Made by a program: the position numbers and the translations under genes. The notes beneath the pieces are model-generated. The model saw nothing but the letters and a program-made list of their open reading frames with translations. It was not told where the DNA came from and did not search any database. A stretch of DNA of 64,000 nt, from positions 62,001 through 126,000 of the forward strand of contig NZ_JAKXMK010000024.1 of assembly GCF_022524485.1 (NCBI RefSeq). The letters run 5' to 3'. The number at the start of each line of letters is the position of its first letter. Positions within the stretch are counted from its first letter, which is position 1. Positions 15,298 to 63,505 of the stretch are shown here, in pieces. Source of the stretch: Pseudonocardia alaniniphila (GTDB lineage: Bacteria > Actinomycetota > Actinomycetes > Mycobacteriales > Pseudonocardiaceae).

Positions 15298-17826
15298 TCA
15301 GTTGTCGTCGTCATCGTCGTCCTTCGCTCCCGGCGGAGGTGCGGGGAACACGTGGTGTTGCGGCGCGGGCATCACGGAGTCGGCGCCCTTCACGCTGTGC
15401 CAGATCGCCTCGTTGAACGTCTGCTCGTCGATCTGGTCCTCCTTCGTGAGGGGCTGGGCGTTGGAGGTCGCCGCGTCGGGCGCGTTCGCCGGGTTCGTCT
15501 CCTTCATGTTCTGTCTCGGTTTCACCGCCGTGTACGGGGTGAGGTTCGGAGTGGACGTGAAGGCGGCCAGCATCGGCGTCGCGTAGGCGTCGAACTGCGT
15601 GAGCGGCTGGAGCCCGAGGATCAGCTCCATCGTCCGCAGCATCGACGCGGTGCTGTAGAAGGTGGAGTCGACCTTGCCCGTCTGGCTGTAGGGGCTGATC
15701 ACCTCGGCCACCGTGCGGTGTGCGTCGACGTGGTCGGGTCCGTCCTGCGCGTCGTCCTCGGTCACGAAGATCGCGGTGGATCCCCAGTACTTGGAGTGCG
15801 AAACCGCGTCGACGACCTGGCCCACCGCCCAGTCGTTGTCCGCGACGTAGACCCTCGGCGTCGGGGAGCCGGTCTTCGTCCCGGCGTTGTGGTCGTTACC
15901 CAGCCGGAGCAGCTCGACGGTCGGCAGGTTGTCGTTCGCGACGTACCTGTCGAACTCCTTCTTCCACTCGGTGTAGCGGGGGCTGAGGCAATGCGCCGAC
16001 GGCACCGGTTTGAAGGTCCCGGGAGAGTCGGGGCAGCTGAGGTCCCAGCCCCGGTAGTTGGCGTCGGTGTGCGCGGCGAGCACGGGGTCGGTCGCCTTCG
16101 ACCGCCCGTCCTTCAGCGTGTCGACGTAGTAGCCGTAGTTGCGGAACGACACGTGATTCTCGGCCAACCGGTCCCAGATGTAGGCCTTCGCCGGGTCACG
16201 GTTCGGTGCGATGGCCGGGTCGGAGCTCTCCGACGGGTAGGGCGCGTTCCGATCGGAGTAGTTGCCGGGCCAGACCTGCTCGGAGTAGGGGTTGGAGTTC
16301 GCCGCCACCGTCCAGTTCCAGCCCTGGGCGCTGACCTCGGCGTCGGCGTAGAAGTTGTCGAAGTCGCCGAACGTCTTCTCCAGGTTGCGGGAGTTGGGGG
16401 CGGACTCGTCGCCGAACAGGTCGAGCGAGGGGTCGCCGTTGCCCTTGCCCAGGTTGCCGAACTCCTGGTCGTAGGTCCGGTTCTCCCGAACGATGAAGAT
16501 CACGTGCTTGATCGGGGTCTGCTCGCCAGGGTGTCGCGGGATGATGCTCATCCCCTGGTCACCACCGCGCACCGCAGCTCCGTCGGCGAATCCGTCATTG
16601 GTCCGCACCTGTTGCGTCCAGGTCTGCAGCTGAGCCGGGTCCGGCGTGGTGATGGCGGAGAGCGTGCCCACCATCATCGAGCCGCTGTACTGGTCCGCCG
16701 CAAGAAAGGTGGAGTAGGGGTTCGGGTGCCCGGGCCCGTTGTTCGGTCCGGCTCCCAGTCCTTTCGCGTTGGTGACGAGCATCTGGTTCCCGTGCATCAC
16801 GATCGACGTGGGGTACCAGCCGGTGGGGATCAGCCCGTTGACAGCGCCGGTACCGGTGTCGACCGCGGCCACGTCGTTGTTGCCCGCGTTGGCGACGTAG
16901 AGCGTGTGGCCGTCCTGCGAGAGCGCGAGCGCGTCGGGGTTGCTGCCGACGGGCGCGTCGGGGTAGGGCGCGAGGCTGATCGTGCGGGTCACCTTGTCCG
17001 AGGCGGTGTCGATGACGCTGACCTCGTCGGAGTCGCCGTTCGCCACGTAGAGGGTGGAACCGTCGGCCGAGGTGATGATCTTGTTGGGGTGGGTGCCGAC
17101 CTTGATGCTCCGCTGCGCCACCGGCATCGCACCCGACACGTCCACCACGGCCACGTCGTTGCCGCCCTGGCTGGTGACGTAAGCGGTGCGGCCGTCCTTG
17201 GAGAGCGCCACGCCGTAGGGCCGGTGCCCGGCCGCGATCGTGTGCACGGCTCCCGTGCCCACATCGATCACGCTGACGGCGTCGGCCTGCTGGTCGGCGA
17301 CGACGAGCCGAGCCCCGTCGGGCGTGACGGCGATGCCGGCCGGGAACGGGTTGACCTTCGCGCCCTTCGGGGTGCTGGTGGGCAGGGCGAACGACCCGTT
17401 GGCGACGAGGCCGTGGTCGCCCACGCCGTAGCTGCGCACGAGGTTGTTGCCACCGCCGCTCGCATAGAGCGTGTGGCCGTCGGGGCTGAAAGCGAGGCCC
17501 GTGTACAGGGCCGCAGGGTCGGGGTAGTCGACGGTCTGTGTGACATCACCGGTGCTCGTGTCGATCAGTTGCAGCGACTGGACACCCTGACCGTCGTTGC
17601 TGATGACGAGATGGCTGCCGTCCGGGGACAGTGCCTCGCCCAGCGGTAGGTCACCGAGGTCCGTCTGCTGCCCCGCCGGCGTGACGGTGAAACCGATGGG
17701 CGTGAGCGTCGGCCCGCCCGGGGCGGGGCCAGGCTGGGGCGGCGTGGCTGCAGCAGCCGTGCCGCCGATGGTCAGCGTGGCCGCCAGGACGGCCGCCGCA
17801 GTGATCGATCGATGTCTGCACCGCAT
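15298..17826 (-). CDS. Secreted YncE-type beta-propeller / phosphoesterase fusion (paralogue 1)
   Basis: 842 aa. The signal peptide ITAAAVLAATLTIGGTAAAA ends at an Ala-rich site. About 40-400 is a seven-bladed YncE/PQQ-like propeller with repeated AVTPDGARLVVAD / ALSQDGHTLYVAN units. From about 440 a phosphoesterase (PF04185-like) domain starts with KHVIFIVRENRTYDQEFG; the Glu-Asn pair and the later VTEDDAQDGPDHVD Asp-Asp pair are the metal ligands in AcpA/phospholipase C relatives, so the enzyme looks intact. Likely extracellular phosphate-ester hydrolase. The C-terminal tail is a run of Asp residues (DDDDDDN). Confidence 0.85.
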   Translation of the reverse strand: MRCRHRSITAAAVLAATLTIGGTAAAATPPQPGPAPGGPTLTPIGFTVTPAGQQTDLGDLPLGEALSPDGSHLVISNDGQGVQSLQLIDTSTGDVTQTVDYPDPAALYTGLAFSPDGHTLYASGGGNNLVRSYGVGDHGLVANGSFALPTSTPKGAKVNPFPAGIAVTPDGARLVVADQQADAVSVIDVGTGAVHTIAAGHRPYGVALSKDGRTAYVTSQGGNDVAVVDVSGAMPVAQRSIKVGTHPNKIITSADGSTLYVANGDSDEVSVIDTASDKVTRTISLAPYPDAPVGSNPDALALSQDGHTLYVANAGNNDVAAVDTGTGAVNGLIPTGWYPTSIVMHGNQMLVTNAKGLGAGPNNGPGHPNPYSTFLAADQYSGSMMVGTLSAITTPDPAQLQTWTQQVRTNDGFADGAAVRGGDQGMSIIPRHPGEQTPIKHVIFIVRENRTYDQEFGNLGKGNGDPSLDLFGDESAPNSRNLEKTFGDFDNFYADAEVSAQGWNWTVAANSNPYSEQVWPGNYSDRNAPYPSESSDPAIAPNRDPAKAYIWDRLAENHVSFRNYGYYVDTLKDGRSKATDPVLAAHTDANYRGWDLSCPDSPGTFKPVPSAHCLSPRYTEWKKEFDRYVANDNLPTVELLRLGNDHNAGTKTGSPTPRVYVADNDWAVGQVVDAVSHSKYWGSTAIFVTEDDAQDGPDHVDAHRTVAEVISPYSQTGKVDSTFYSTASMLRTMELILGLQPLTQFDAYATPMLAAFTSTPNLTPYTAVKPRQNMKETNPANAPDAATSNAQPLTKEDQIDEQTFNEAIWHSVKGADSVMPAPQHHVFPAPPPGAKDDDDDDN

Positions 17827-37724: not shown

Positions 37725-37931
37725 TCACATCACATGCATGTTGTCGATCTCGAATATGAAGTCGGATCCCCGCTCGGTCACAGACATCTCCAACGACAAG
37801 TCGCTCAGCGACTCGGCGGTGGTCCATAGCGGAAGGACGACCGCCCACCCGCTCCCGTCGCTGAACCGGAAACTGTCGGTCCCGGGATGGGCCCGCTTTC
37901 TGGCCAGGGTGGCACATTCTCGCAGCAGCAG
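37725..37931 (-). pseudogene. 5'-truncated small gene (unknown family)
   Basis: An open frame ending in TGA at 37727-37725 encodes a protein-like tail: FRFSDGSGWAVVLPLWTTAE, SLSDLSLEMSVTERGSDFIF, then EIDNMHVM. There is no ATG, GTG or TTG before the conserved part, and the frame runs back into the acyl-CoA dehydrogenase remnant. It resembles small uncharacterised proteins with a PLWT...DLTLE...DDLHV pattern (DUF7668-like, from memory). Most likely the 3' part of a gene truncated at the junction. Confidence 0.4.
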
Positions 37932-37941
37932 GATCGAAGAC

Positions 37942-38019
37942 TCAGTGCTTGGCCAGGGATCGGGCGATCACCAGGCATTGGATCTCGTTGGTGCCCTCGA
38001 AGATCTGCATTATCTTGAG
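37942..38019 (-). pseudogene. Acyl-CoA dehydrogenase C-terminal remnant
   Basis: Encodes LKIMQIFEGTNEIQCLVIAR followed by SLAKH and TGA: the last 25 residues of an acyl-CoA dehydrogenase. 64 of 69 bases (37948-38016) match the 3' end of the intact gene at 39951-40019, in the same orientation. Everything upstream of this tail is missing and is replaced by unrelated sequence leading to the MFS gene. Confidence 0.8.
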
Positions 38020-38152: not shown

Positions 38153-39553
38153 TCACTCAGACGGGGCCTGGCTGGTTCTGCCGGGGAGGCAGAGCGTAGC
38201 TATCAGTCCGATGAGGCCGATGCCTGCCAGGACGATCATGGCTGCCGAGTACGCGTGGCCCGGCGTGGTGAGGCCGACGACAAGGATCGTGCCGGCAATG
38301 GCGGTGCCCAGGGACGAGCCCAGGTTCGACACGCTGCGCGACAGACCGGAGATCTCCCCCTGTTGTTCCTCGGGGAACGCGGACTGCACGACGTTGACCG
38401 AGGGGGTCAGCATCGTTCCGAGGCCCAGGCCGATGAGCAGAAGTCCTGGGGCGAAGGCCCAGACGTTCGACGAGAACCTGACCATGACGAGCAGGACGCC
38501 GATCCCGCCGAGTGTGACGACGAAGCCCGCCATGATCAGGCTGCGCTGTGGATGTCTCTTGGCGAGCCTTTCGGCGGCGAGGGACGACACGAGGATGCCG
38601 GCAGTGGCGGCGGTGAAGATCACGCCTGTCTGGATTGCGTTGTAGCCGCGGACGACCTGGAGATAGGCCGAGACGACGAACGCGACTCCCATGAGCAGCA
38701 GCCACTGGACGTTCTGCGTGACGAGCGCGAGATTCGAGGTGCGGTTCCGGAACAGGGCGGTGGACAACAGCGGCTCTTCACCGGCTCGCTCCTTGGCGCG
38801 GACGTGGAGGAAGAACCAGACAAGGACGAGGACTCCGACGACCAGCAGGATCGCCATCAGTGTCAGGTTGTTGTCCGCCTGCAAGATTCCCATCACGAGG
38901 CACGCCAGGCCGGCGGCCGACAGGATCGTTCCGACCACGTCGAAGGGCCGAGTGGGATCCGGCAGTACCGGATCAGCGATCCGGCGACTGAGCAGCACGA
39001 TGATCACGATGATCACGGCCTGAAATATGAACGCCGCACGCCAGCTGATGCCGGTGGTGATGATGCCGCCGATCAACGGTCCTGCAGCCGCGCCGATGCC
39101 GCCCATCCCGGTGATCACCCCGAAGGCCCGTGCGCGGGACGTGAAGTCGCTGAAGAGCATTGTCGTGAGGATGTAGACGGGTGGGATTAAGAGAGCGGTT
39201 CCCACGCCTTCGAGGATGGAGTTGCCAAGTATCAGGATGCCGAGGCCGGGAGAAAACGCGCTGACAAGGGCGCCGACCCCGTAGATGGCGAGGCCGAGCA
39301 GGAAGCACCGTTTCCGGCCCCAGCGGTCGGTCAGCTTGCCGCCCGGGATCATGAAGGCCGCCATGACGAGCAGGAAGACCGTGATCGCGATCTGGACACC
39401 TTGCACGGTCGTGCCCAGATCCCGGCTGATGTCGTTGATCATCACGTTCATGTTCGAGCCGGCGAAGCTGCAGATGAACTGAGCAAGGGCAAGCGGGATC
39501 AGCATGCGCCGCAGCGGAGCAGTCGGCCGTGGAGGGCTGACGTTCTCTGCCAT
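38153..39553 (-). CDS. MFS drug-type exporter (DHA2-like, 14 spans)
   Basis: 466 aa, ATG 39553. Many hydrophobic segments; motif A region GGKLTDRWGRKRCFLLGLAI follows the second span, and the motif C-like GMGGIGAAAGPLIGGIITTG lies in span five. Layout fits the DHA2 proton-drug antiporters. Substrate unknown. Codon use is visibly less GC3-rich than its neighbours, and the gene lies between two copies of the same 69-base acyl-CoA dehydrogenase tail, consistent with acquisition or rearrangement. Confidence 0.87.
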   Translation of the reverse strand: MAENVSPPRPTAPLRRMLIPLALAQFICSFAGSNMNVMINDISRDLGTTVQGVQIAITVFLLVMAAFMIPGGKLTDRWGRKRCFLLGLAIYGVGALVSAFSPGLGILILGNSILEGVGTALLIPPVYILTTMLFSDFTSRARAFGVITGMGGIGAAAGPLIGGIITTGISWRAAFIFQAVIIVIIVLLSRRIADPVLPDPTRPFDVVGTILSAAGLACLVMGILQADNNLTLMAILLVVGVLVLVWFFLHVRAKERAGEEPLLSTALFRNRTSNLALVTQNVQWLLLMGVAFVVSAYLQVVRGYNAIQTGVIFTAATAGILVSSLAAERLAKRHPQRSLIMAGFVVTLGGIGVLLVMVRFSSNVWAFAPGLLLIGLGLGTMLTPSVNVVQSAFPEEQQGEISGLSRSVSNLGSSLGTAIAGTILVVGLTTPGHAYSAAMIVLAGIGLIGLIATLCLPGRTSQAPSE

Positions 39554-39944
39554 GATGCCCGCCGATCCAAACCTTGCGTAGCCAGCAAGATGCGCGTCAC
39601 CAGGCGATCGGCGTTCGGGCTGCGCTGAGACGACCGCGCGACCGCCTGACGTGCCCGAGCGTTGGCGGAAACTCCGCGCTCACACCGACCGCCTGGCCGA
39701 CCGTTCGTTCGTACCCTCTCCACGCGACAGCTCGCGCACCTCGCTCCTGTGCCGGGTGACGCTCGGACAGGGTCCGCCGAGTCCGGCTCGGACGCCTCGC
39801 CCATGCGGGGTGAGCGCCAACAGGCCGACGAAGGCGTGGTCGTTCAACTGAGTGCTACACACCGTCATCGCGTCGTCGTCGACGCCCCTCCGCCCCCCTC
39901 CAACGCATGTCTCCTCGTTGCCCAAGGGCGGAAGAATCAACGAT
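39554..39944. other. Intergenic region upstream of the MFS gene
   Basis: No gene is supported on either strand. One feature stands out: CCGACCGTTCGTTCG at 39697-39711, identical over 15 bases to the putative operator at 13716-13730. It lies about 145 bases upstream of the MFS start and could bind a TetR protein. Confidence 0.5.
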
Positions 39945-41087
39945 CTAGCCCCTGGCCAGGGATCGGGCGATCACCAGGCGTTGGATCTGATTGGTGCCCT
40001 CGAAGATCTGCATGATCTTCGCCTCGCGCATGTAGCGCTCCACGGGGAAGTCGCGGGTGTAGCCGTAGCCGCCCAGGACCTGTACCGCGTCGGTGGTGAC
40101 CTTCATGGCGGCGTCGGTGGCGACGAGCTTGGCGACGCTCGCCTGACGGCTGTAGTCGCGGCCGGCGTCGCGACGGCGGGCGGCGTCGAGGTAGGTGGCG
40201 CGGGCGGAGTCGACGGCGGCCGCCATGTCGGCGAGCACGAAGCCGAGGCCCTGGTGGTCGATGATCTTCTTGCCGAACGTGGTGCGCTCGTTGGCGTAGG
40301 CCGAGGCGGTGTCGAGGGCGGCGCGGGCGAGTCCGGTGGCGACGGCGGCGATGCCGAGCCGTCCCGAGTCGAGGGCTGCGAAAGCGATCTGCAGGCCCTG
40401 GCCCTCCTTCCCGATGAGCCGCTCGGGTTCGAGCACCGCGCCGTCCCAGTGCGCGGTCGTGGTGGGGATGGCGTGCAGGCCCATCTTCTCCTCGGGCTTG
40501 CCGAAGGAGAGCCCGTCGGCCGTGCCGGGTGCGAGGAAGCACGACACGCCGCGTGAGCCCTCCGACGTGCGGGCGAAGAGCGCGTAGAAATCGGCCTTGC
40601 CGCCGTGGGTGATCCACGCCTTGGTGCCGGTGATCCGGTAGCCGTTCTCCACCTTCTGGGCGCGGCAGGTGAGAGCGGCAGCGTCGGAACCCGCCTGCGG
40701 CTCCGACAGGCTGTAGCCGCCGATCAGTTCACCGGCGAGCATCCTCGGCAACCAGCGTTCCTGCTGCTCGGGCGAGCCGAAGGTGGCCAGCGGGAAGCAC
40801 GAGAGCCCGTGCACGCTCACCGCGACGGCGACCGCTGCCCACCGCGCGCCGAGCTCCTCGAGGACCTGGAGGTAGACCTCGTAGGGCTGGTCGCCGCCGC
40901 CCATCTCCTCGGGGTAGGGCAGCCCCAGGAGCCCGGCCTGGCCCAGCGTCGCGAACAGGCCGTCCGGATAGGTCTCGGCACGCTCGTGCTGTTCGACGCG
41001 GGTGGCGAGCTCCTTGTCGGCGAGTTCGCAGGTCAGTGCGAGCAGGTCCTCGGCCTCCTGGGTGGGAAGCAGCCGGTCGACGGCCAT
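39945..41087 (-). CDS. Acyl-CoA dehydrogenase
   Basis: 380 aa, ATG 41087 behind GGAG. Three-domain flavoenzyme: YSLSEPQAGSDAAALTCRAQ and AWITHGGKADFYALFART (FAD/substrate loops), FGKKIIDHQGLGFVLADMAA, and the C-terminal QVLGGYGYTRDFPVERYMRE then IMQIFEGTNQIQ. The catalytic Glu is expected in the last motif (FEGTNQ), as in short-chain enzymes. It oxidises an acyl-CoA and passes electrons to ETF. Shares a palindromic promoter with the divergent TetR gene. Confidence 0.92.
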   Translation of the reverse strand: MAVDRLLPTQEAEDLLALTCELADKELATRVEQHERAETYPDGLFATLGQAGLLGLPYPEEMGGGDQPYEVYLQVLEELGARWAAVAVAVSVHGLSCFPLATFGSPEQQERWLPRMLAGELIGGYSLSEPQAGSDAAALTCRAQKVENGYRITGTKAWITHGGKADFYALFARTSEGSRGVSCFLAPGTADGLSFGKPEEKMGLHAIPTTTAHWDGAVLEPERLIGKEGQGLQIAFAALDSGRLGIAAVATGLARAALDTASAYANERTTFGKKIIDHQGLGFVLADMAAAVDSARATYLDAARRRDAGRDYSRQASVAKLVATDAAMKVTTDAVQVLGGYGYTRDFPVERYMREAKIMQIFEGTNQIQRLVIARSLARG

Positions 41088-59757: not shown

Positions 59758-60543
59758 GTGCGACACGAGGAACGGCAACGTCACAGGTCGTCGTTCGGTG
59801 CGGCGGCCGTCGCATACGCCGAGCATCGCCCGGACTACGCGCAGGACGCGGTGCGGTGGGCGCTCGCGCCCGCGCCCGGTCCGCGCGTGCTCGACCTCGG
59901 CGCCGGCACCGGCAAGCTCACCGCCACGCTGGTGGCGCTGGGCGCCCAGGTCATCGCGGTCGAGCCCGACCCCGCGATGCTGACCGAGCTGCGCCACGCA
60001 TTGCCGGCTGTCCGCGCCCTGCCGGGGAGTGCGGAGGCGATACCGCTGCCGGACGCGTCCGTCGATGCCGTGCTGGCCGGGCATGCCCTGCACTGGTTCG
60101 ACATGGCCGTCGCTGGGCCTGAGATCGCCAGGGTCCTCAGACCCGGCGGCATCCTGGCGGGCCTGTGGAACGTCGTCGACAACCGGGTCGACTGGGTCTC
60201 CGCACTCGAGCGGGTCAGCGGGAGCGCGGCCATCGGCCCGCGTGACACGCTCAGCAGCTGGCGCGCCGAGACGGCGGCCGCGCATCTACCCGGCCCTGGC
60301 GTGATCGCCCGGTTCGGCTCGCCGGAGCAGGCCGAGTTCCCGCACGGGCAGCGCCGCACAGTCGACTCCCTCGTCGCGGCCCTCGCGACGAGGGCGGGCG
60401 TGCTGGTCATGCCGGAGCAGGAACGAGAGGCCACGCTCGGGCGGATCCGCGCTTTCCTCGCGAGCCGACCGGAGACCGCCGGCGGCGAGTTCACCCTCCC
60501 GATGCTGACCGGCGTGCTGCGCGTCCGGCCGCTGTCCCGCTAG
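59758..60543 (+). CDS. Class I SAM-dependent methyltransferase
   Basis: 261 aa, GTG 59758 after AGAAGGG. Motif I VLDLGAGTGKLTATLVALGA, motif II VIAVEPDPAMLTEL, post-motif GSAEAIPLPDASVDAVLAGH. The C-terminal part is the methyltransf_11-type region. Substrate unknown. It starts 42 bp after the betaine operon and overlaps the convergent esterase-like gene by four bases. Confidence 0.87.
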   Translation: MRHEERQRHRSSFGAAAVAYAEHRPDYAQDAVRWALAPAPGPRVLDLGAGTGKLTATLVALGAQVIAVEPDPAMLTELRHALPAVRALPGSAEAIPLPDASVDAVLAGHALHWFDMAVAGPEIARVLRPGGILAGLWNVVDNRVDWVSALERVSGSAAIGPRDTLSSWRAETAAAHLPGPGVIARFGSPEQAEFPHGQRRTVDSLVAALATRAGVLVMPEQEREATLGRIRAFLASRPETAGGEFTLPMLTGVLRVRPLSR

Positions 60544-61598
60544 CGCTTCGGGAGGGTCGCCGTCAGCGAGTACAGGCGGGTGATCTGGACGGGGTTCTCG
60601 TTGTCGTCGCTGACCAGCAGCAACCGCAGGCGTCCGCCGCCCTCGTGCCGCGTGACGGCGATCCCCTCGATGTTGTCCAGCAGCGGGTTGGGCTGCGGCT
60701 GCTTGGCGGTGGCGCCGAGGGTCGGGCACTTCCCGATGTCCGCCAGCAGTGTCTTGCCGATCAGGTGGGTGTCCGTCTGCGGGGTGAGGTTCTCGACCTT
60801 GCTGACGTCCGTGGCTCCGCGCGGGTCGGCGAGGTAGAGGCGGACCGTGTTGCCGACGCCCTCGGTGAAGCCTCGTTCGAGCACGAGCAGGCGGCCGTCG
60901 CCGGTCGCGGCGATGTCGGAGATGCCGAGGCCGGGATCGCCGCGGTAGGCGTACTGGGCGCCGAGCGTCAAGTCCGCCTTCGGGTTCGGGCGGGTCCAGG
61001 TCTGGAAGCGGTGGAGGTCGGGCTCGTCGCCGCTGAGCGGGCCCTCCATCGACGCGATCAGGGTGCGGTCGCCGGGCTGCATCGTCAGGCCCTCGAACGT
61101 CAGGTTCGTGGTGGCGCGGCCGGCGGGCGCCACGCGGAGGGCGTCCGGGACGGGAAGGCTGCCGGCGATGAGATGCCCGTCGCGGTCGTAGCGGCGAATG
61201 GACGGCTCGACCTCGGACGTGATGAGCCGGGTGCCGTCGGCATCCACGACGATGGCCTCGGAGTCGAGCGGCTTGCCGTTCTCGTCCGCGAGGGGCACCA
61301 CCTTGGTGGGCTTCTTCGTGCGCCCGTCGAGGTTGAACAGCGAAGACCGGTCGGCGAGCGCGAGGATGCTGCCGTCCGTGTCGACCGCGAGCGCGGAGAG
61401 GTTGCCGACGAAGGTGTTGTCGAACGTGGTCTTGTTCAGCGCGTCGGAGAACGAGTTGATGGTCACCGATGGCGAGCACGCGTGGCTGCCGCCCGCGGCT
61501 TCGACATCGGCCTGCGCCGGTGCGACCGGTCCGGCGACGGTGACGAGGGCGACCACGGCGGGCACAGCGGCGAGGACGAATGCTGATCGCAAGCGCAC
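60540..61598 (-). CDS. Secreted phytase-like esterase-domain protein
   Basis: 352 aa, ATG 61598. The signal peptide FVLAAVPAVVALVTVAGPVA is followed by AQADVEAAGG. The rest is a beta-propeller-like domain of the esterase-like phytase family: VGNLSALAVDTDGSILALAD, DSEAIVVDADGTRLITSEVE, RTLIASMEGPL and LLDNIEGIAVTRHEGG. Extracellular; whether it has phytase or esterase activity is not shown by sequence. Confidence 0.83.
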   Translation of the reverse strand: MRLRSAFVLAAVPAVVALVTVAGPVAPAQADVEAAGGSHACSPSVTINSFSDALNKTTFDNTFVGNLSALAVDTDGSILALADRSSLFNLDGRTKKPTKVVPLADENGKPLDSEAIVVDADGTRLITSEVEPSIRRYDRDGHLIAGSLPVPDALRVAPAGRATTNLTFEGLTMQPGDRTLIASMEGPLSGDEPDLHRFQTWTRPNPKADLTLGAQYAYRGDPGLGISDIAATGDGRLLVLERGFTEGVGNTVRLYLADPRGATDVSKVENLTPQTDTHLIGKTLLADIGKCPTLGATAKQPQPNPLLDNIEGIAVTRHEGGGRLRLLLVSDDNENPVQITRLYSLTATLPKR

Positions 61599-61668: not shown

Positions 61669-61726
61669 GTGAGATCGACTTCAGCGCTGGGCTCTCGCCC
61701 GGGAACAGCACTGATGTCCAGTTCAC
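61669..61726. repeat. 58-bp palindromic flanking element, left copy
   Basis: Begins GTGAGATCGA and ends CAGTTCAC; the two halves pair imperfectly to a long hairpin. It is the same length as the right copy (62672-62729), matches it at 45 of 58 positions and has the same orientation. It lies 55 bases upstream of the chosen GTG of the endonuclease-fold gene. Confidence 0.8.
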
Positions 61727-61781
61727 GGCCGTTTTTCTGATACGAGCCACGGGCCCGCGCGTTCTCCGCGATGCTCTCGCC

Positions 61782-62675
61782 GTGTCGAGCGTTCCGTCGC
61801 CCGGTTCCCACACACCGTGGTGGCCCACCGTCTTTCGCTGGTCGGTCGCCGTGCGGGCCGGGCTCGTGACGAAGGCCGAGCTACGCGGCCGCAGGTATGT
61901 CCGCGTTTTCCCCGACGTCTATGCGGCCGCCTCCACGCACCCGTCGGACCCATTGCTGCGCGCCCGCGCCGCTTTCCTGCTCACCGGGGGCCGTGGAGTG
62001 GTGTCCGGCTACTCGGCGGCCGAGATGCTCGGTGCCTCGTGCGGCCCGCAAGGTGCACCGGTGGAGCTGACGGTGCCCGGAAGTGGCGCGCGCTCGCACC
62101 CCGGTCTGCTGCTGCATCGTGACCAGCTGGCCCGTGACGAGGTGCAGCGGTGCGCGGGGGTGCTCGTCACGACGCCGCTGCGGACCGCGTACGACCTGGC
62201 CCGGTGGCAGGACCCCGTGGAGGCGGTGGTCGCCGTCGACACATTGGCGAACCGCGGCCGGTTCGCGCCCGAGGAGGTCCTGCGGCTCGCCGCCCGCTAT
62301 CCGCGGGCCCGTGGCCGCACCGGCCTGCCACGCGCCGTCGGGCTGTCGGACGCGCGAGCCGGCTCGCCCATGGAGTCGCGACTGCGTCTCGTGCTGGTGT
62401 TGCGCGGACTGCCCGCACCCGAGGTGCAGTACCCGGTGCTCGACGATCGCCGCCGCAGGGCGGTGTGGCTCGACATGGCGTACCCGGAGCACCGAATCGG
62501 CATCGAGTACGAGGGCGCGGACCATGGCAGCCGGGACGGAGTTCTGCGCGACGTGAGCCGGTACACGGCGCTGGTGGACCGGGGTTGGCGGATGTACCGC
62601 TTCAGCAAGTACGAGGTGTACGGCGAACCCGACGAGATCGCCGCGAAGATCCGGCGGGCGCTCGACCGGGCGTGA
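61782..62675 (+). CDS. AbiEi/DUF559-type protein with PD-(D/E)XK-like nuclease domain
   Basis: 297 aa from GTG 61782; an in-frame GTG at 61665 starts inside the left repeat and is less likely. N-terminal part (about 15-140) resembles the AbiEi/type IV antitoxin fold: RWSVAVRAGLVTKAELRGRR, VVSGYSAAEMLGASCG, LVTTPLRTAYDLAR. The C-terminal part has VWLDMAYPEHRIGIEYEGAD (Asp230, Glu242, Glu244), followed by YTALVDRGWRMYRFSKYEVY, the Vsr/DUF559 nuclease-like pattern. Its TGA lies inside the right palindrome. Stand-alone; no toxin gene nearby. May be mobile or defence-related (inference). Confidence 0.8.
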   Translation: MSSVPSPGSHTPWWPTVFRWSVAVRAGLVTKAELRGRRYVRVFPDVYAAASTHPSDPLLRARAAFLLTGGRGVVSGYSAAEMLGASCGPQGAPVELTVPGSGARSHPGLLLHRDQLARDEVQRCAGVLVTTPLRTAYDLARWQDPVEAVVAVDTLANRGRFAPEEVLRLAARYPRARGRTGLPRAVGLSDARAGSPMESRLRLVLVLRGLPAPEVQYPVLDDRRRRAVWLDMAYPEHRIGIEYEGADHGSRDGVLRDVSRYTALVDRGWRMYRFSKYEVYGEPDEIAAKIRRALDRA

Positions 62676-62729
62676 GATCGACATCAGTGCTGGTCTCGCG
62701 CCGAGAGACAGCGCTGGTGTTCATCTCAC
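62672..62729. repeat. 58-bp palindromic flanking element, right copy
   Basis: Arms GTGAGATCGACATCAGTGCT and AGCGCTGGTGTTCATCTCAC pair with a few mismatches. It contains the TGA of the upstream gene (62673-62675) and, on the other strand, the stop of iclR (62728-62726), so it ends both convergent genes and can act as a bidirectional terminator. Confidence 0.85.
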
Positions 62730-63505
62730 GGTTGGAACCAGCCCATCCTCCTGCTCATCTCCGATGCTGCTGCACGGAGGGGCGTGGCCAGTTCTTTCAG
62801 GCGGGTGGTGTCCATGCGGTAGGCGGGGCCGCTCACGGTCAGCGCCGCGATCACCTGGCCCGCGCGGTCGCACACCGGTGCGGCCGCGGCGTTGAGCCCG
62901 ATCTCGTACTCCTCGATGGCCACCGCGAGTCCGGTTTCGCGCACCTGCGCGAGCTCGGCGTCGAGCATGCTGAGGGAGGTGATCGTGTTCGGGGTGACCG
63001 CCTCCATCCCCGCCTCGGCGAGCAGTTCGGCTCTGCGCTCGGGGTCGAGGTGGGCCAGAAGCACCTTCCCGCTCGACGTGCAGTGCAGCGGCGTGAGCCG
63101 GCCGATCCAGTTGTGGGTGGCCACAGTGGACGGTCCCATCGCCTGGTCGATGTTGACGACCCAGTGTGACTGGAGCACCGCGATGTTGATCGTCTCGCCG
63201 AGGTCGGCGGCCAGTTGCTCGTACACCGGGCGCCCCTGGCGGGTGACCTCGAGGCGGTCGGATACGGCTCCTGCCAGCGGGATCAGTCCGAACCCGAGCC
63301 GGTACTTGCCGCGGTCGGTGGCCTGCTCCACGAGGCCATGGCCTTCGAGGGCGCCGAGTAGCCGGAACGCCGTGGACTTGTGGACCTCGATCTCCGCTGC
63401 CACCTCGCTGACGCCCGCCTCGCCCAGCCGAGCCAGTATTTCCAGGACGCTTATCGCGCGGTCCACGGACTGGATCCCGCCGTCTCGACCCCCTGTGTTG
63501 CTCAT
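62726..63505 (-). CDS. IclR family regulator
   Basis: 259 aa, ATG 63505. wHTH at about 12-70: IQSVDRAISVLEILARLGEA, VAAEIEVHKSTAFRLLGALE. C-terminal effector domain with THNWIGRLTPLHCTSSGKVL and EEYEIGLNAAAAPV, typical of IclR. Divergent from the aldehyde dehydrogenase gene, with 68 bases between; likely its regulator and possibly of the betaine genes. The stop codon lies in the right palindrome. Confidence 0.9.
   Translation of the reverse strand: MSNTGGRDGGIQSVDRAISVLEILARLGEAGVSEVAAEIEVHKSTAFRLLGALEGHGLVEQATDRGKYRLGFGLIPLAGAVSDRLEVTRQGRPVYEQLAADLGETINIAVLQSHWVVNIDQAMGPSTVATHNWIGRLTPLHCTSSGKVLLAHLDPERRAELLAEAGMEAVTPNTITSLSMLDAELAQVRETGLAVAIEEYEIGLNAAAAPVCDRAGQVIAALTVSGPAYRMDTTRLKELATPLRAAASEMSRRMGWFQP

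Follow-up and report, generated by a model that had tools for sequence, protein, structure and literature searches.

Genes enclosed by palindromes are known from the REP-associated tyrosine transposases (RAYTs), which are reported to be always flanked by two inverted repetitive extragenic palindromes (REPs; PMC2817692), the size of REPs being 20-40 bp (PMC3733652). Paired repeats are also known next to genes of AbiEi proteins, which autoregulate via paired 23-bp repeats upstream of their own gene (PMC7319586). The subject of this analysis is a unit of Pseudonocardia alaniniphila in which two matched palindromes bracket a single gene for an AbiEi-like protein with a nuclease domain. It lies near the end of a 64,000-nucleotide stretch (the window; contig NZ_JAKXMK010000024.1, positions 62,001 to 126,000), and such palindrome-gene-palindrome units, here called cassettes, are a class and not a one-off.

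The bracketed gene and its protein

The unit and its neighbours have the following coordinates in the window:

61669..61726, no strand: left palindrome, 58 bp (covariance model E 1.8e-12, the model having been built with this sequence included)
62672..62729, no strand: right palindrome, 58 bp (covariance model E 1.2e-13, likewise with this sequence included)
61782..62675, + strand: AbiEi-DUF559/MTES_1575 nuclease gene, likely GTG start, TGA inside the right palindrome
61791..62351, + strand: N-terminal half of the protein, residues 4-190, predicted AbiEi antitoxin-like fold, presumed palindrome-binding module
62361..62672, + strand: C-terminal nuclease domain, residues 194-297, predicted I-Bth0305I-/Vsr-like fold
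62726..63505, - strand: iclR regulator gene, convergent neighbour and anchor for the site comparison
60540..61598, - strand: phytase-like (esterase-like) gene, the other neighbour of the unit

The first-pass annotation had described two imperfect 58-base hairpins of the same orientation with 45 of 58 positions identical, and coordinates and identity were reproduced. Lengthened in register, the palindromes reach 62 bp with 79% identity. Both fold into hairpins on either strand; folded as 66-nt + strands, the right one gives -40.6 kcal/mol (z -6.6) and the left one -29.1 kcal/mol (z -2.6). As single palindromes they score 13.2 and 11.0, compared with a window best of 16.6, so that neither is outstanding alone. 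It is their occurrence as a matched, palindromic pair on both sides of one gene that goes beyond chance in the window; the 56 other 58-mer pairs that reach 45/58 (spacings 200-2499, window 1-60000) all lie within two coding-looking repeat clusters. Rfam at gathering scores has no match in the window.

The outer end of the left palindrome faces the phytase-like gene and its inner end lies 55 bp 5' of the likely start codon, GTG 61782, to which the alignments of homologs point within a reading frame that is open from 61665. The right palindrome indeed supplies two stop codons, as had been proposed, namely TGA at 62673-62675 for the enclosed gene and TGA at 62726-62728 for the convergent iclR. 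The nuclease gene is the only one called between the phytase-like gene and iclR.

The assignment of this gene as AbiEi/DUF559-like stands, as the protein matches AbiEi profiles and scores above the family cut-off for DUF559 (MTES_1575, E 7.5e-7, stays below its cut-off). According to predicted folds, it consists of an AbiEi-antitoxin-like half joined to a Vsr/I-Bth0305I-like nuclease domain, the closest fold of the latter being a homing endonuclease; matches in the Protein Data Bank (PDB) to proteins of the mitoribosome and to others were read as no more than a shared fold. D231 and D257 of the nuclease domain are invariant, E242 and H248 nearly so. A Pfam scan of 45 homologs (E up to 0.01) found MTES_1575 in 42 and DUF559 in 41 of them. 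No transposase gene was found between the phytase-like gene and iclR, and neither the window protein nor the 45 homologs match a transposase family (Pfam gave only MTES_1575, DUF559, AbiEi_1 and three stray families; Y1 transposases were not searched genome-wide).

Recurrence of the cassettes and their private palindromes

Relatives of the nuclease gene occur in all 62 genomes of the genus, with 1 to 17 in each among the matches listed, and the window's own assembly (G000) has eight protein matches, the window protein included. A scan of genome contigs added one relative in Pseudonocardia pini; this locus (L036 = L112) was entered twice among the 115 below, and one copy was removed for the co-divergence test. 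The genus set consisted of earlier found loci plus 80 regions selected by the author among the matches listed, giving 117 loci oriented with the gene on the + strand, 115 of them with usable flanks (left out were L030, without a tblastn hit, and L057 and L134, with short flanks). For each, the 500 bp upstream of the gene were compared with the 500 bp downstream. At the strict cut-off of E<1e-6, the flanks match on either strand at 67/115 loci, and at 43/115 they match on both strands and thus form a palindromic pair. Mismatched flanks from different loci gave 7/400 and 2/400, respectively, random window intervals 0/300 and 0/300, and the other called genes of the window 1/34 and 0/34. With a looser cut-off of 1e-4, 84/115 loci match, as against 25/400 mismatched and 16/300 random controls. 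The suggestion that the unit is a palindrome-bracketed cassette reminiscent of REP/RAYT pairs, with a different protein, is supported.

A search of the phylum yielded 29 loci, 27 with usable flanks (L190 and L205 were too short). At E<1e-6, 15 of the 27 pass, including one from the window's own genome, which leaves 14/26 outside it. The proteins of the passing loci are about 28-42% identical to the window protein, and their flanking repeats are unrelated in sequence. Weak relatives were also found in a plasmid collection (six) and in a phage collection (one).

The palindromes have preferred places. In loci paired at 1e-4, the right palindrome starts between -38 and +18 relative to the stop codon in 47/59, and the left one lies 52-151 bp 5' of the estimated gene start in 54/63. 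The latter is mostly the place at which the known AbiEi proteins have their paired 23-bp upstream repeats (PMC7319586), and with an AbiEi-like half present, the protein could be a DNA-binding regulator only, with the palindromes as its operators, the nuclease directed at other DNA (for example invading DNA) and the copies made by ordinary duplication. This explanation leaves the right palindrome at the stop codon unaccounted for, as well as two observations described below, the solitary palindromes between convergent genes and the swap of cassettes between the same junctions, and it is considered rather improbable.

Within a locus the palindromes are alike, up to complete identity at L026 (63/63 bp), and between loci they mostly differ. 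A comparison of 83 cassettes shows that the more similar the proteins are, the more similar are the palindromes (Spearman 0.29, reached in 0/1000 permutations), and of 77 pairs of different cassettes from one genome only 2 have a palindrome in common (40 bits or more). The palindromes are thus mostly private to their cassette and co-diverge with its protein.

Their symmetry seems to be maintained in the DNA and not for an RNA hairpin: among 449 mismatches within 122 palindromes, G.T (97) and A.C (101) are equally frequent and hence do not point to selection acting on one of the RNA strands, so that a function as RNA hairpin found no support in this test. In an alignment of 41 palindromes, paired changes on both sides fill 153 cells as compared with 59 in shuffles, which is an illustration and a weak test, since most rows were selected for being symmetrical (pairing at 15 or more of the 22 outer positions) and 54-63 long (35 of 52 picked were exactly 58). 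The mismatch parity also speaks against transcription terminators or insulators that ended up by chance around a fast-turning-over gene. Such a role would suit strong hairpins located at stop codons and between convergent genes; it does not suit sequences that are mostly cassette-private, with left-right identity of up to 100%, nor the absence or near-control frequency of two counted arm patterns (see below) in most cassette-free genomes. This possibility is already disfavoured and has very little left to recommend it.

GATC occurs in the central 18 nt of 20/40 distinct aligned rows and of 12/40 solitary palindromes (shuffled means 2.2 and 1.9), and since TCGA (18 rows, 10 solitary) and CCGG (13 rows, 15 solitary) are about as common there and the rows are related to one another, we do not propose a cut site. 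The outer ends vary (GTGAGAT, CCGAGAT, GCGACAT, CTGACAT and others). In the cassettes read, the palindrome is complete on either side. The excision model discussed below was put to a half-site test (inner arms resembling each other, and likewise the outer arms), which gave no support: in 11 cassettes chosen by strict criteria, direct arm pairing was on average slightly above inverted pairing (7 higher, 2 lower). At L253, L118 and L127, palindromes stand close together in pairs or short arrays (in G155, for example, two copies are separated by about 94 bp), which recall REP doublets.

Solitary palindromes and the fate of sites in relatives

A covariance model run on ten genomes found many more palindromes than there are at cassettes. 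From among the matches listed, 40 solitary palindromes were read (15 from G155, 5 from G122, 9 from G000 and 11 from G250). A weak DUF559 match lies within the 1.5-kb stretch of one of them, and the other 39 have none at E<1e-3. For 27/40, the most similar of 118 compared cassettes is in the same genome (four of these tied with another genome). By a simple caller of open reading frames (ORFs), 24 had a classifiable gene context, which was convergent in 18, tandem in 5 and divergent in 1, while the baseline of 35 neighbouring gene pairs in the window is 9 convergent, 17 tandem and 9 divergent; of the remaining ones, 8 overlap a called ORF and 8 lie at an edge.

Arm patterns were furthermore counted in all 62 genomes, with the reversed pattern as control and the counts being lower bounds. 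The L026-type pattern is found in three genomes, with 21 hits in G000, 18 in G250 and 4 in G235 (reversed control 0), and the L026-type cassette is present in the first two. A second type has 30 hits in G155, 37 in G208, 31 in G050, 30 in G139, 23 in G233, 23 in G219 and 14 in G203, all of them genomes with a cassette of that palindrome kind; G082 has 9, G230 has 5, and the other 53 genomes stay at the level of the control with 0-3. No second-type hit was found in G223 and G228, in whose cassettes the arm is related but not the same (CGAGATGCAC...). The distinct places are at least 16 in G000 (L026 type) and at least 16 in G155. Both counted types are thus concentrated where the cognate cassette is, and these palindromes are not spread independently of the gene family.

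Solitary palindromes scattered like REPs, and lone palindromes without a gene, would also be expected if an unrelated enzyme, for example a true RAYT, moved the palindromes as non-autonomous elements and the nuclease gene were a passenger or exploiter. It speaks against this that the palindrome type tends to follow the cassette of the same genome, that the palindromes co-diverge with the nuclease protein, and that matching flanks, of unrelated sequence, turn up again across the phylum; an outside enzyme is therefore judged unlikely, slightly more so than the purely regulatory role.

Some of the solitary sites were compared among relatives. Of the nine read in the window's own genome, two (L271, L275) are window-like and seven L026-like. 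L272 and L277 were considered as empty-site cases, the palindrome being missing in the nine and eight relatives read, respectively, and were rejected as clean empty sites because the far flanks are rearranged in the relatives. A hairpin of the GGCGCTGACC type with a T-containing stretch behind it is conserved at about 660-720 of L272 and in its orthologs L292-L300, and may be the upstream gene's native terminator; this hairpin is present in the nine relatives read, and the solitary palindrome behind it only in the window's species. L271 (G000) and L283 (G250) share a solitary site with 87% identical flank and arms of GAGATCGAC and GAGATGGACA, respectively. This arm difference is partly repeated at the iclR site, which hints at concerted palindrome change within a genome.

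The iclR site itself is highly variable, the absence of palindromes having been judged by eye on the 330 bp behind iclR. A cassette with palindromes is found in the window, in G206 and in G249, with a weaker match (E 3e-5) in G200 and G220; a lone palindrome in G250, G240 and G205; a decayed gene between two palindromes in G235; a reverse-oriented gene in G218, with a decayed counterpart in G224; and neither gene nor palindrome in G226, G238, G239, G245, G192 and G221, the last of which has a cassette about 2 kb off. The window species groups with G250 and G235 in the iclR tree (support 100/99), and the three have, in this order, a cassette, a lone palindrome and a decayed cassette. This suggests gene loss leaving one palindrome, while the opposite order would be compatible with the same tree. 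The best case of cassette exchange at exact junctions is G206 versus G218, two sister species. One flank is 95.0% identical between them over 1777 bp and the other 96.0% over 1869 bp, through the palindromes' outer GTGAG and CTCAC, and between these junctions there are different genes (60% protein identity) in opposite orientation with different palindromes; the closest relative of the G218 gene among 15 compared is one in G215 (79%).

For the L026 site, 20 regions were fetched, 18 of which had both flanks, and 15 were inspected (L216, L218 and L219 were left out). No cassette match was found in 17/18 relatives with both flanks, the remaining one, G240, having a decayed cassette. G250, with one flank on the contig, has a complete cassette that is inverted relative to that flank. 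Unrelated palindromes are present in L211, L222 and L225.

Presence, absence and exchange of a cassette at one site are thus seen, and as the nuclease domain is nearest to a homing endonuclease and cassette-free sites exist, a strict homing element that targets the cassette-free gene junction and leaves palindromes as repair by-products could be imagined. Palindromes on both sides that co-diverge with the protein and are dispersed without the gene make this the most improbable of the explanations considered.

Beside these cases, G234 has an unrelated palindrome pair at the iclR site (L097) and the same other type, with CCCCACCGTTTTG in its arms, at the L026 site (L225), both places where other species have cassettes. 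No DUF559 gene was found at either site, and this may be another dispersed palindrome family that favours the same gene ends. Two further kinds of repeats were seen in the window. A 92-bp stretch at 37925-38016 and 39928-40019 (84% identical) repeats the 3' terminal part of a gene labelled by reading as acyl-CoA dehydrogenase-like; the copies lie on opposite sides of a transporter-like gene (38153-39553) and are perhaps a truncated duplication scar. Coding-looking repeats of 60-81 bp with spacings of 132-285 bp are found at 16858-17496, which we take to resemble beta-propeller-type repeat units.

A possible mechanism and its place among known systems

The architecture, its recurrence, the mostly private, co-diverging palindromes, the solitary dispersal, the site polymorphism and the predicted folds are directly supported, and with this it appears fairly probable that the cassettes are a REP/RAYT-like mobile, or formerly mobile, system in which the AbiEi-nuclease protein acts on its own palindrome, binding, cutting and movement being what we infer. 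The most economical reading would be a REP/RAYT-like arrangement with a palindrome-specific homing-type nuclease in the place of the HUH transposase. The protein would recognise its palindrome via the AbiEi module, probably as a dimer with one module per arm of about 22 bp, which would put two nuclease domains above the palindrome centre, and a cut at the centre would then be repaired from another copy. Such cutting and copy repair would result in cassette exchange at sites bounded by the palindrome ends, in leftover lone palindromes, in scattered palindromes in genomes with the cognate gene, and in the left-right likeness and co-divergence with the protein. The left palindrome probably doubles as an autoregulatory operator, as in AbiE systems.

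Several observations weigh against this mobile, palindrome-specific system. At 48/115 genus loci the flank test fails at E<1e-6, and at 21/115 even at 1e-3. Of 67 loci, 37 have their two palindromes in direct and 21 in inverted orientation, and 9 are tied, so that there is no fixed transposon-like orientation of ends. No target-site duplication can be defined, including at the site of exact-junction exchange, and no recent jump was seen among the relatives compared. The most similar cassette was not in the same genome for 13/40 solitary palindromes, some by ties or near ties, and G235, G082 and G230 carry copies of the counted types without a demonstrated cassette. The window type has only two further, divergent copies among the own-genome solitary palindromes read, neither of them closest to the window cassette, and when the window palindrome was run by plain BLASTN on the assembly it comes from, nothing beyond the flanking pair matched well (next E 0.08), a picture that is incomplete because the covariance model found further ones. 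That the gene stands at the iclR locus without repeats applies to one clade of three species, G236, G246 and G237 (support 100/99), which keep it without visible palindromes, and not to the relatives as a whole, which range from cassettes, lone palindromes and decayed or swapped cassettes to empty sites. Finally, a palindrome-cutting enzyme would be expected to attack its own cassette and the solitary copies, for which reason the nuclease must be repressed or need a special substrate.

A more far-reaching version, which is tentative and at present rather doubtful, is a new class of mobile element in which an AbiEi dimer reads the private palindrome arms and the homing-type nuclease domains cut the centre, freeing or inserting cassettes. 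Cuts at the centres of both flanking palindromes would free the cassette and leave one rebuilt palindrome, and a cassette inserted at the middle of a lone cognate palindrome would rebuild two. In this case a lone palindrome would be a footprint and a landing pad at once, and a genome could hold several mutually orthogonal nuclease-palindrome pairs. Should the cassettes be mobile elements specific for their palindromes, a nuclease unrelated to HUH transposases would have arrived at a REP-like way of life, many actinobacterial intergenic palindromes would gain an owner, and a large natural set of distinct protein/DNA-site pairs would become available for studying how specificity evolves.

By sequence, the nuclease domain belongs with DUF559 and MTES_1575 (Pfam PF04480, PF18741) and with Vsr. 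In the open-access papers searched, no role was found assigned to these nuclease-gene relatives and no description of palindrome-bracketed nuclease cassettes, and the bracketing and the dispersed cognate palindromes set the cassettes apart from what was found there on these families. As to insertion sequences and miniature inverted-repeat transposable elements, the relevant features are the exchange at exact junctions, the lack of a transposase family in the 45 homologs and the lack of a definable duplication. With the EDxHD homing endonuclease I-Bth0305I (PMC3943268; PDB 3r3p), the cassette nuclease shares the predicted catalytic fold; it differs in that its gene is not in an intron as far as seen, in the two flanking and the dispersed palindromes, and in the AbiEi-like DNA-binding half. 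The predicted fold of residues 4-190 resembles the AbiEi antitoxins of S. agalactiae and M. tuberculosis (Rv2827c), and the palindrome geometry is similar to a published operator of the AbiEi type, the paired 23-bp upstream repeats having a 13-bp gap for Rv2827c (PMC7319586). Unlike in these type IV toxin-antitoxin systems, a C-terminal nuclease domain is added, repeats are found also 3' of the gene and at distant loci, and at the window locus there is no adjacent gene for an AbiEii nucleotidyltransferase toxin, the neighbours being the phytase-like gene and iclR.

The likeness to REP/RAYT systems (PMC2817692) consists in one gene bracketed by two palindromes and in cognate palindromes scattered through the intergenic DNA of the same genome. 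The cassette protein is, however, a Vsr-like nuclease with an AbiEi-like module and without the Y1/HUH (Transposase_17) domain, its palindromes have about 58 bp and more and not the 20-40 of REPs (PMC3733652), they occupy at least 16 places in each of two genomes counted whereas REPs usually exceed 100 copies, they lack the conserved GT(A/G)G head tetranucleotide, and they flank the gene in direct or inverted orientation whereas the flanks of RAYTs are reported as inverted (PMC2817692). As protein family, head tetranucleotide and copy number differ, the cassettes are placed not as a member of the REP/RAYT group, but as a system that works like it.
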